Shown here: positions 19,886 to 44,093 of the stretch, piece by piece
Layout: every line of letters begins with the position of its first letter
Numbering within the stretch: position 1 is the stretch's first letter
Assembly: GCA_035561515.1 (NCBI GenBank)
Contig: DATMXP010000052.1
Location: 62,001-126,000 of the forward strand
DNA length: 64,000 nucleotides
Reading direction: 5' to 3'
DNA from: Terriglobales bacterium
Lineage (GTDB): Bacteria > Acidobacteriota > Terriglobia > Terriglobales > Acidobacteriaceae
The notes under the pieces: model-generated
The model's database searches: none
The model's input: the letters and a program-made list of their open reading frames with translations, nothing else
Told to the model about the DNA's origin: nothing
Translations under genes and position numbers: made by a program

Positions 19886-21124
19886 ATGGCAGAGATACGT
19901 CGCAGAGGATCCGTTACCTGTACCATCGGCAATGTCCGCGTGGGCTCCGACGCGCCAGTAATGGTGCAGTCCATGACCAACACCGATACCGCTGATGTGC
20001 TCTCCACCGTTGCACAGGTGGAAGCACTGGCGCGCGCCGGATCGGAAGTGGTGCGCGTGACGGTGAACAACGACGAGGCTGCCGCTGCCGTCCCTCGCAT
20101 TGTGGACTTGCTGGACCGCAAGGGTATCAGCGTTCCCATCATCGGCGACTTCCATTACAACGGCCACATCCTGCTGAAGAAGTATCCCGAGTGCGCGCGG
20201 ATGCTGGCGAAGTACCGCATTAATCCCGGCAACGTGAGCGTCGGGCGGAAAGACGACGACAACTTCCGCACGATGATCGAAGTGGCCGTCGAAAATCAGA
20301 AACCGGTTCGCATCGGCGTGAACTGGGGTTCGCTCGACCAGCAACTGCTCACCCGCATGATGGACGACAACAACAAGCTTGCGGACCCACTGCCGGCTCG
20401 CGACGTGACCATGGAAGCGATGGTAGTGAGCGCACTGAAGTCTGCGGAACTGGCGGAGAAGTACGGACTGCGTCACGACCAGATCATCCTGAGCGCGAAA
20501 GTGAGTGGCGTGCAGGACTTGATCGATGTTTACCGGAACCTGGCGGCTCGCTGTGACTATCCACTGCACCTCGGTTTGACGGAAGCAGGCATGGGCGTAA
20601 AGGGAATTGTCGCGTCAACGGCGGGACTTGCAGTCCTGTTGCAGGAAGGGATTGGAGACACGATTCGCGTTTCCCTTACACCGGCCCCGAACGGCGATCG
20701 CACGGAAGAAGTCGTAACTGCGCAGCAGATTCTGCAGTCGATGGGCATCCGCAGCTTCACGCCGCAGGTGACGGCGTGTCCAGGATGCGGACGAACGACG
20801 AGCACCTATTTCCAGGAACTGGCTGAGAATATCCAGAGTTATCTTCGCAACCAGATGCCAATTTGGCGCGACAACTACATCGGCGTGGAAGAGATGAAAG
20901 TGGCTGTCATGGGATGCGTGGTGAATGGTCCCGGCGAATCAAAACACGCCAACCTTGGTATCTCACTTCCCGGGACATTTGAGGAGCCAAAGGCTCCTGT
21001 GTATGTTGACGGTCGATTAATGACCACACTGAAAGGCGACCACATCGCCGAAGAGTTCATGAAGATCCTGCAGGATTACGTGGACTCACACTACGCACCG
21101 AAGACGGAAGCGGTCGCGAAGTAA
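19886..21124 (+). CDS. ispG: 4-hydroxy-3-methylbut-2-en-1-yl diphosphate synthase
   Basis: 412 residues. Iron-sulfur enzyme of the MEP pathway converting MEcPP to HMBPP. The N-terminal TIM-barrel part begins [20 protein letters not shown] with [12 protein letters not shown]. The 4Fe-4S cysteines are in [11 protein letters not shown] and [12 protein letters not shown] near the C-terminus. Length matches the short two-domain bacterial form without the insert of plant and chlamydial proteins. With dxr at 14266 and uppS at 30933, the window holds three isoprenoid-route genes that are not in one operon. Confidence 0.95.
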
Positions 21125-21150: not shown

Positions 21151-21174
21151 GGGCACGGCAGCTTCGCCGTGCCC
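21151..21174 (+). terminator. Hairpin after ispG, no U-run
   Basis: Nine-bp perfect stem GGGCACGGC / GCCGTGCCC with a six-base loop, 27 bases after the ispG stop. There is no T-run, so termination at this site would need another factor. The related stem at 55904 does have a T-run. Confidence 0.5.
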
Positions 21175-21226: not shown

Positions 21227-21337
21227 TTATAAACTCAGTAGGCCGACCGACACACCGAGCCAAACCACAAATCCCGCCACTACCAAAGCCGTCCGAATCA
21301 AAGCGTTGTCGATGAACCAATTCCAATTCGCATCCAT
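21227..21337 (-). CDS. Candidate 36-residue single-span membrane protein
   Basis: A short frame on the minus strand: ATG at 21337, stop TAA at 21229-21227. GGGAGG lies five bases upstream of the ATG, as strong as any ribosome site in the window. The product starts MDANWNWFIDNALIRTALV and continues as one hydrophobic helix (VVAGFVVWLGVSVGLLSL), with a polar N-terminus and no charged C-terminal tail. It stands alone between ispG and the 5'-nucleotidase gene. Function unknown. The call rests on the ribosome site and the clean transmembrane pattern, and chance is possible at this length. Confidence 0.55.
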   Translation of the reverse strand: MDANWNWFIDNALIRTALVVAGFVVWLGVSVGLLSL

Positions 21338-21444
21338 AAGAACCTCCCGGTTGCCTACTTTTCTGACGTTTGCATTTCCGTTTCGTCAACCGATTCTGTC
21401 CCTGTATACGAAGGACTGATGGCAAAAGTTCCCTGGATTTCCTT

Positions 21445-21469
21445 TGTCACCGAAAGTGACACTTTTTTG
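21445..21469 (+). terminator. Orphan terminator-like hairpin
   Basis: Stem TGTCAC / GTGACA with five-base loop followed by CTTTTTTG. It is 320 bases beyond ispG and 120 before the next gene on this strand. It could end a long ispG 3' region or an unannotated small RNA. Confidence 0.45.
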
Positions 21470-21588
21470 CAGCGAGTTCGGCGATTTCAATTTGGGAATT
21501 TCTGTAAATAATTGCGAATCTAAGTAGCTCCCACCTGGAACTTCGGCGATAAGCTTCGCTTCAGTACTGAGCACTTGGGGAGGTGTTC

Positions 21589-23196
21589 ATGAAGCGGTCA
21601 CGCCTTATTCGGCTTCTTCTCATCGTTTTCTGCTTTTTAGTCTGGGTGGGAATCTGCACGGCCCAACAGGTCACTTTGCTCCACGTGAACGACACGCATT
21701 CGCACATCGACGCCTGGGGACCGAAAGACGCAAATCTCGACGGCACTCTCGGCGGATTACCGAAAGTAGCCACGGTTGTTGGCATGCAACGCGCAGCCGA
21801 CCCGCAGGCTCTGTTTGTGCACGGTGGCGATTTGTTCCACGGAGATCCGTTCTTCAACCAATACTTCGGGATTCCGGAGATTCAGATCCTTCAACAACTC
21901 GGATTGAACGCGATGGCCGTCGGCAATCATGAGTTTCAGTACGGGCCTGACTTCCTGGCCTTTGTGCTGAGCTACTCGATGCCGACGTATCCTGCGCCTC
22001 CGTCGTTTCCGCTGGTAAGTTCGAACCTCGATTTCGCCAACTACCCATATCTGCCTTGGATCGGTTCGACCACACTCAAGGAAGTGAATGGAGTGAAGGT
22101 CGGATTCTTTGGCATCACCACCCCGTACGACGTGATTGAGCAGCCTGCTCCGGTAGTGGTGCGCGAAACGCTGGCAGAGGACTCAGCCGCCGCTGTTGCG
22201 CAGTTGCGGTCGCAGGGAGCGCAGATCGTTGTGTGCCTGTGTCACACGGGTATGCAGGTATCTGAATTGCTGGCGCAAGTTGTGCCGGGGATCGATGTGA
22301 TCGTGAACGCGCACGACCACGTTGCGCTCGCGGAACCGAAGATGGTTGTGTCGCCGACGGGCACAACGATCATCGTTTCGGCCGGACAGTATTACCGGTG
22401 GGTTGGGAAGTTGCGGCTGAACTACGACGGAACACATGTCTCCATGGTGGATTATTCGCTGCTGTCTGTTGATGAGAATGTGCCGGCGTATCCGTCGCTC
22501 CAGGCAGTAGTCGACAGTCTGAAGCCGGAAATCGTCGCTCGTTACGGAGACATCTATCACACCCAGATTGCCTGGGCGACTGCGCCGATCTCCAAGGAAT
22601 TCGATCCCGATCACATCAAACGTGACACGGCTCTCGGGGACCTAGTCGCCGATGCCTACCGGAACCACACCGGGACAGAGATCGCATTGGAAGCCAGCGG
22701 CTTCATCAACGAAGATATGCCGCCTGGGCCCATCGTGGGAGCGGATGTGTTTCGCGTGATGAGCTATGGCATCCCGCACATGACCCAAACCGGTTTGTCG
22801 ATCGATCTGTTCCGCCTGGCGACGTTCCGCATCAGCGGCGCGGAACTGATCAAAGGATTGGAAATAACGCTGACGAACACGGATTTGTATCCGCAGATTT
22901 CAGGGATGCGCTTCGAAATGGACTCGCGTAACCCTCCTTATCAGCGCATTCTGCTCGATACAGTCCACATCAACGGGCACAAACTCGACCCCACCCGGCT
23001 CTATTCGGTTACGGGAACCGAGGGATTGGTGATGTTTCTGCCCATGATGGGACTTGAGGTGCAGGACGTTCATATACTTCCCGACACCGCCTACGACGCG
23101 ATCAAGGCGCTCGTGATCCAACGGGCGATTCTCGATCCCGCGTATTCAGGACGTATTCGCGACGTGGCATCGATTCCGGGAAAGGCGCAAAAGTAG
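21589..23196 (+). CDS. 5'-nucleotidase / UshA-family metallophosphoesterase, exported
   Basis: 535 residues from ATG 21589, with GGGGAGG five bases upstream; a GTG two codons earlier overlaps that site. Signal peptide up to about residue 23 (LIVFCFLVWVGICTAQ). The metallophosphoesterase domain shows the dimetal motifs VNDTHSHIDAW, HGGDLFHGDPFF and VGNHEFQYGPDF, then HDHV. The C-terminal 5'-nucleotidase domain follows (GDLVADAYRNHTGTEIALEA and the substrate-site region near YSVTGTEGLVMFL). Probably a periplasmic nucleotide or sugar-phosphate hydrolase; exact substrate not determinable. Confidence 0.88.
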   Translation: MKRSRLIRLLLIVFCFLVWVGICTAQQVTLLHVNDTHSHIDAWGPKDANLDGTLGGLPKVATVVGMQRAADPQALFVHGGDLFHGDPFFNQYFGIPEIQILQQLGLNAMAVGNHEFQYGPDFLAFVLSYSMPTYPAPPSFPLVSSNLDFANYPYLPWIGSTTLKEVNGVKVGFFGITTPYDVIEQPAPVVVRETLAEDSAAAVAQLRSQGAQIVVCLCHTGMQVSELLAQVVPGIDVIVNAHDHVALAEPKMVVSPTGTTIIVSAGQYYRWVGKLRLNYDGTHVSMVDYSLLSVDENVPAYPSLQAVVDSLKPEIVARYGDIYHTQIAWATAPISKEFDPDHIKRDTALGDLVADAYRNHTGTEIALEASGFINEDMPPGPIVGADVFRVMSYGIPHMTQTGLSIDLFRLATFRISGAELIKGLEITLTNTDLYPQISGMRFEMDSRNPPYQRILLDTVHINGHKLDPTRLYSVTGTEGLVMFLPMMGLEVQDVHILPDTAYDAIKALVIQRAILDPAYSGRIRDVASIPGKAQK

Positions 23197-43772: not shown

Positions 43773-43892
43773 ATAAGGATTCCGTATGAAATCGAACCAA
43801 CTAGGGTATAGGAGCGGGACAAGAACGGCTAGTGGGCTGCCGCACGGAACTTCGTGACAGCACAATGCGTATCATCAGGCAGAGGCACTCGC

Positions 43893-44093
43893 ATGCTCAC
43901 ATTCATCTTGTGGTGCATTCTATTCGTGATCTGCTGGCCGCTGGCGCTGCTCGCGATCTTGCTGTACCCGCTGGTTTGGCTGTTTCTGCTGCCGTTCCGG
44001 TTGTTGGGAATTGCGGTGGAAGGCGCGTTGAAACTTGTTTGGGCCGTAGTGACGTTGCCCGCTCGCCTCCTGGGTGCGCCGGGCCGGCTTTAG
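43893..44093 (+). CDS. Small hydrophobic membrane protein
   Basis: 66 residues from ATG 43893, with AGAGG about seven bases upstream. Two very hydrophobic helices (LTFILWCILFVICWPLALLA and LLYPLVWLFLLPFRLLGIA), then an amphipathic helix ending LPARLLGAPGRL. No family recognised. It is divergent from the acyl-CoA carboxylase and its stop overlaps the stop of the hydrolase gene on the other strand (TTAG). Confidence 0.6.
   Translation: MLTFILWCILFVICWPLALLAILLYPLVWLFLLPFRLLGIAVEGALKLVWAVVTLPARLLGAPGRL

Follow-up and report, generated by a model that had tools for sequence, protein, structure and literature searches.

A 36-residue membrane protein gene of soil Acidobacteria is a probable member of an ECF-sigma envelope-stress regulon

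We describe a 36-residue protein encoded on the minus strand of a Terriglobales genome, within a window (the whole stretch of DNA analysed) of 64,000 nucleotides, and propose as the best overall explanation that it is probably a single-pass inner-membrane protein of an envelope-stress regulon controlled by an ECF sigma factor. Genes this small commonly go unannotated, and the small membrane proteins studied in detail belong mostly to a few model bacteria. Here an overlooked open reading frame (ORF) becomes a testable candidate member of such a regulon in soil Acidobacteria through the combination of its conservation, its selection and a stress-type promoter that other genes share. The promoter evidence suggests a function, where the initial annotation of this DNA had proposed none. 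The features of the locus are as follows.

19886..21124, plus strand: ispG (gcpE), the convergent neighbour (PF04551)
21152..21173, no strand assigned: 22-base hairpin without a T-run, between the convergent small gene and ispG; putative shared transcription terminator
21227..21337, minus strand: small membrane protein gene, 36 aa, one predicted transmembrane helix (family, selection, AF2 model)
21343..21348, minus strand: ribosome-binding site GGGAGG, 5 bases before the ATG
21407..21432, minus strand: ECF-sigma-type promoter motif GGAAC-N17-CGTA, 69 nt before the ATG (-35 at 21432..21428, -10 at 21410..21407)
21583..23196, plus strand: 5′-nucleotidase-like gene (PF02872, PF00149), lying between the DUF72 gene and the small gene in this genome
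23246..24166, minus strand: DUF72 gene (PF01904), a frequent same-strand upstream neighbour, here with the nucleotidase gene intervening

Results

The ORF and the gap that holds it

The ORF runs from an ATG at 21337 to a TAA at 21227 and its product is MDANWNWFIDNALIRTALVVAGFVVWLGVSVGLLSL. In ccGGGAGGttcttATG, a GGGAGG stands five bases before the ATG, just as the initial annotation had reported, and a Shine–Dalgarno-like element (by a liberal pattern) lies within 15 nt of the start in 66 of 75 family members. The single membrane helix claimed for the product agrees with one hydrophobic stretch in the protein (top 19-residue Kyte-Doolittle mean of 2.37) and with an AF2 model built from 10 sequences, which places helices at residues 3–10 and 12–35 (mean pLDDT 88.6, pTM 0.50).

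The gap spans 458 bases, from the end of ispG at 21124 to the first start of the plus-strand nucleotidase ORF at 21583. We shuffled it 4000 times with dinucleotides preserved and scored ATG ORFs of 30–60 codons. An ORF having a membrane stretch as well as a strong ribosome site never appeared (0/4000); a membrane stretch with any ribosome site arose 16 times, and a ribosome site with any hydrophobicity 63 times. The gap had been described as otherwise empty, which holds for genes, as we recognised no second coding ORF there, but not for signals, as it also carries the ECF-type promoter motif (21432..21407) and the hairpin at 21152–21173. The hairpin is single-copy in its own genome at up to 3 mismatches, and its position suggests a terminator shared by the small gene and ispG. 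Upstream of the 5′-nucleotidase gene, a dyad TGTCAC-CGAAA-GTGACA at 21445–21461 is possibly an operator; as a terminator-like call it is at chance level (1 found, 0.8 expected).

A lineage-specific family under purifying selection

In a first search of 61 genomes, relatives of 36–42 aa shared M1, N6, D10, R15 and W26. We then searched 398 genomes from the window's taxonomic family with a profile, which matched 64 genomes from 30 genera at E 2.8e-8 or better, one of them (G246) through a paralogue only and one (G088) through a copy cut at a contig edge. Samples of the class (399 genomes) and phylum (297), which include genomes of the window's own family, gave 18 and 5 matching genomes, respectively, at E up to 0.001, all from that family and none from outside it; the neighbouring family f2 gave weak matches only (E 0.016 or worse). 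By these searches the gene family is lineage-specific, confined to a group of soil Acidobacteria.

The initial annotation had named stops or frameshifts in relatives as evidence that would count against the gene. We checked the frame in 77 stretches, the window and 76 others that were picked from profile matches and are therefore not an unbiased sample, and found it intact at 36–40 aa in 75, with 74 starting at ATG. The two others are technical cases: a length filter removed one, and the other is truncated where its contig starts. No internal stop occurs among the listed profile matches with E ≤ 0.01. The 75 members comprise 62 orthologues and 13 paralogues, the latter from genera g66 (7) and g70 (6). 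Positions 17–31 are free of K, R, D and E in all 75, and in a 46-member alignment, where identity to the window protein ranges over 36–67%, N6, D10, R15 and W26 are invariant. The family has the form of small single-pass proteins (at most 50 aa, one hydrophobic helix).

Change in the relatives is biased towards synonymous sites, a check that had likewise been proposed for this frame. Across 13 genus groups, 11 made up of orthologues and 2 of paralogues, Nei-Gojobori dN/dS is 0.06–0.22 in 12 and 0 in one single-pair group, values that are approximate because pS nears saturation in several groups. Mean nucleotide identity is higher in the ORF than in the upstream flank in 13/13 groups, and higher than in the downstream flank in 12/13; the exception, g25, is one pair in which the downstream flank runs into ispG. 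On comparative grounds the ORF is almost certainly a real protein-coding gene, and the early reading of it as a real, usually missed small membrane-protein gene is borne out by the family's conservation and by dN/dS of 0–0.22.

No Pfam family matches the window protein, and over the 46 aligned members nine Pfam families match a single member apiece, at no better than E 0.028; neither PspC nor Lia is among these families. PHROGs gives a best E of 0.0041, with any one family matched by at most 3/46 members. The sole NCBIfam match, TIGR03165 (F1/F0 ATPase, Methanosarcina type, subunit 2), is weak (window protein E 0.0014, 19 bits against a cut-off of 55.5, 1/46 members) and we took it as chance. 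A literature search, mostly of papers open without subscription, found no description of the family. The protein family is new; its kind, small stress-induced membrane proteins, is already known.

A conserved ECF-type promoter motif

In upstream alignments of six locus sets, a GGAAC...CGTA block survives in otherwise diverged orthologue DNA. We searched 350 bases upstream of each start for GGAAC-N-CGTA, allowing spacings of 14 to 19. A perfect motif stands before 50 of 62 orthologues, always with a spacing of 17 (33 loci) or 16 (17 loci), and before none of the 13 paralogues. Base shuffles gave a mean of 0.6 (maximum 4), the reverse strand 0, and random 350-bp stretches from the same loci a mean of 2 (maximum 7). 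Within one mismatch the motif covers 59/62 orthologues (83/1500 shuffles reach this level): of the 12 lacking a perfect copy, 9 have one mismatch, 2 have two and 1 has three, which leaves L072, L079 and L114 with no motif even at one mismatch. By genus, 22 of 29 have at least one member with the perfect form.

The motif is retained while the upstream neighbour differs, be it a DUF72, CAP, nucleotidase or two-component-like gene (by eye). What is conserved is a GGAAC-type -35 and a CGT-type -10 held 16–17 nt apart, the mark by which we recognise the regulon. We infer that an ECF sigma factor recognises the motif, and it is very likely, judging from this pattern, that the small gene has its own promoter under ECF sigma control.

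Neighbouring genes

Within three recognised genes to either side of the 62 orthologues, ispG lies convergently downstream in 47 (25 genera), and in 41 the immediate downstream gene is ispG on the opposite strand. A DUF72 gene lies upstream on the same strand in 32 (20 genera), CAP in 29, and ispG and DUF72 are both present at 23. We rejected the idea that DUF72 or CAP is an operon partner throughout the family, as the upstream neighbour varies and the motif stays. In genus g79, ispG is absent from the three genes on either side at 9/9 loci, and selection and motif persist there; in g66 and g70 the small gene sits beside ispG and DUF72 is missing. At one locus (L092, in G159), the sole such case among the 62 orthologues, ispG lies upstream on the same strand as the small gene, an unexplained exception that may be an inversion or an assembly fault.

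Viewed from ispG, 10 of 80 named loci carry the small gene in the stretch examined; of the 70 without it, seven have less than 1 kb of downstream sequence, and five (L169, L172, L178, L183 and L186) keep ispG and DUF72 and have no such ORF. The gene's presence is thus patchy. A divergent version of the gene was sought on the small gene's strand within 2.5 kb at 62 ispG loci without it and was rejected: six have a hydrophobic ORF led by a ribosome site, none family-like by eye, and the five loci just named have no such hydrophobic ORF within that distance.

Other genes behind the motif

Genome-wide, a stricter pattern (GGAACYTT-N13/14-CGTA, with the reversed pattern as control) occurs 7 times in the window's own genome against 3 for the control, about twofold, and 49 times in 12 relatives against 24, so about half of its matches are background. 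Of the seven own-genome matches, two are internal to long coding ORFs, and a third (L227) overlaps an ORF in the opposite orientation. A looser pattern is near chance in the same genome (21 against 17 reversed).

Close to a start, the motif recurs before zinc-ribbon/PspC, HlyD-type, MacB-like, DUF6249 and ECF sigma genes. The HlyD-type genes are L252 (by Pfam) and L255, L286 and L295 (by resemblance); L249 is HlyD-type by Pfam and has the motif only through the looser, chance-level pattern. MacB-like permeases with the motif are L280 (Pfam) and L227 (resemblance), and L288 is a DUF6249 gene (Pfam). For L228 and L284 we dropped a DUF4097 identity, a likeness by eye with no Pfam match at E up to 0.01.

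We put the PspC gene to a direct test. A PspC match occurs in 37 of 40 genomes, and we examined 30 loci, of which 19 belong to genomes that carry the small gene and 11 to genomes that lack it. A perfect motif lies within 200 bases upstream of the PspC/zinc-ribbon gene in 25 of the 30, at 20–30 nt before the start in 19 of those 25, whereas base shuffles of the upstream DNA gave it in 3/1500. The motif is present in 16/19 genomes with the small gene and in 9/11 without, so the small protein is not required everywhere for the PspC response. The motif thereby exposes a candidate regulon that can be traced genome by genome: PspC, HlyD- and MacB-type transporters, and a further small membrane protein.

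That further gene lies in the window at 43893–44093 on the plus strand and encodes a hydrophobic protein of 66 aa (MLTFILWCILFVICWPLALL...), for which Pfam gives no match. By the looser pattern, a motif GGAACTTCGTGACAGCACAATGCGTAT stands at 43846–43872, 20 nt before its ATG. In a relative (L267, in G011), the stricter motif stands 19 nt ahead of the start.

Candidate sigma factors

At L311:2055-5188 of the window's own genome, an ECF sigma gene with the motif overlaps by 4 bases the gene for an 857-aa zf-HC2/FecR protein, which is followed by an ABC transporter ATPase gene (named by eye). From this arrangement L311 is a candidate autoregulated stress locus in that genome. Of six orthologues of the FecR-linked sigma gene whose upstream DNA we examined, three have the motif (own genome, G020 and G073) and three do not (G025, G077 and G022). 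Strong matches to this sigma factor (E < 1e-50) occur in 7/20 genomes with the small gene and 2/20 without, with a profile built from six of the seven matching small-gene genomes. We rejected it as sole regulator: 13/20 small-gene genomes give no strong match, and with matches in only 7/20 it cannot be the general regulator. We also considered whether the motif might stem from autoregulation of a widespread RpoE-like ECF sigma, and set this aside: the motif is missing upstream of that sigma gene at 9/9 loci from relatives, and in the window's own genome one degenerate match lies there.

Paralogues with other upstream elements

The seven g66 paralogues (MFDGKNN type; L124–L129 and L132) lie beside a cytochrome P450-like gene (by eye) in 4 of 6 inspected cases. 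In place of the ECF motif, 7/7 have TTGGC[AC]-N6/7-[TG]GC upstream, a count that is not independent for four loci because their alignment had guided the choice of pattern; the pattern occurs in 0/68 other family members and 5/700 shuffles. This element resembles the -24/-12 element of sigma-54 promoters. The g70 paralogues (MFENN type; L131 and L133–L137) have neither the ECF nor the sigma-54-like motif. A different conserved block lies upstream of them, and NuoA/NuoC-like genes (by eye) are near some of the loci (L133). Judged by these upstream elements, the sigma factor has apparently switched between paralogues.

Discussion

From the gene, its selection and family, the predicted membrane helix and the shared motif, we infer stress induction and a non-enzymatic membrane role for the small protein. 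In the mechanism we favour, an ECF sigma factor would transcribe the small gene from its own promoter, and the same factor would also drive the PspC gene, joined in some genomes by transport genes and an ECF sigma gene. The product, laid out as a short polar N-terminus, one predicted helix and almost no C-terminal tail, would accumulate in the cytoplasmic membrane during envelope stress and act there without enzyme activity. Most likely N6, D10, R15 and W26 would pair with a larger protein in the membrane, be it PspC or one of the regulon's transporters, or else the bilayer would be altered directly; either way, membrane maintenance would be helped. An envelope-stress membrane role is, on the genomic pattern, reasonably likely; naming any particular partner is doubtful. 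A bolder form of this proposal, tentative at present, makes the protein a dedicated small partner in a PspC-centred ECF envelope-stress response found in this acidobacterial group alone. After duplication, control of the copies would have passed to sigma-54 in one genus and, in another, to a promoter of a third type; if this is true, the paralogues serve different membrane stresses.

The most serious competitor, which we regard as possible though not favoured, casts the protein as a small accessory or regulatory component of one particular membrane enzyme or transporter, much like AcrZ or CydX, and treats the stress control as incidental. The invariant N6, D10, R15 and W26 could well be contact residues, and in some genomes the motif is common to HlyD- and MacB-type transport genes. 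Against this, the small gene has no constant co-directional partner (DUF72 at 32/62, CAP at 29/62), nor does the family profile match any PDB chain at E up to 10. The convergent ispG, present at 47/62 orthologues in 25 genera, raises the separate idea of a regulator of IspG or isoprenoid synthesis, for which the 63-aa YdfD of E. coli, outlined in PMC8835842 as acting on IspG, would be a precedent. We consider this very improbable: the two genes are on opposite strands and form no operon, g79 keeps selection and motif with no ispG nearby (9/9 loci), and 70/80 named ispG loci are without the small gene (seven of them with less than 1 kb downstream).

Small size, hydrophobicity and a gap with no other recognised coding ORF would also suit a type I toxin normally silenced by antisense RNA. 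This reading is made very improbable by the strong purifying selection, by the conserved promoter of stress type and by the position next to ispG in 47/62 orthologues; in addition, Rfam finds 0 families over the window at gathering thresholds, and scanning both strands of the small-gene region for the sigma-70 consensus gave no promoter. Finally, an ORF this short invites the suspicion of chance, or of a leader peptide whose translation rather than product matters. That suspicion is scarcely credible given dN/dS of 0–0.22, 36–67% identity with conserved residues and 0/4000 in the gap shuffles, and a leader would have nothing to attenuate because the next gene downstream is the opposite-strand ispG in 41/62 orthologues. 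We retain the probably ECF-controlled, single-pass membrane protein as the working explanation.

Comparison with known systems places this protein among familiar kinds. AcrZ and MgtS are, beside YohP, small stress-induced membrane proteins of E. coli, and like all three the window protein has fewer than 50 residues, one transmembrane helix and no catalytic domain. Unlike them, its family has no family match, is lineage-restricted, and combines a conserved polar N-terminal motif with an ECF-type promoter. According to the abstract of the YohP study, small membrane proteins are often up-regulated in unfavourable conditions, and the 27-aa YohP itself changes lipid content and fluidity (PMC12719787). 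As in Psp and Lia networks, where sigma-W is summarised as inducing B. subtilis pspA (PMC8581546) and LiaI as a small membrane anchor in envelope stress (PMC9239133, PMC11237479), a Psp-type gene is tied to the putative response, here through the promoter motif that the PspC gene has in common with the small gene; unlike PspC and LiaI, the family has no PspC or Lia domain (Pfam, 46 members). A parallel in promoter architecture is the sigma-E regulon of Streptomyces, for which GGGAAC...CGTC sites ahead of pspA and mreBCD are tabulated in PMC6767563. The -10 element is CGTC in these two examples from a different phylum and CGTA here, and the architecture is otherwise that of the motif in the window.
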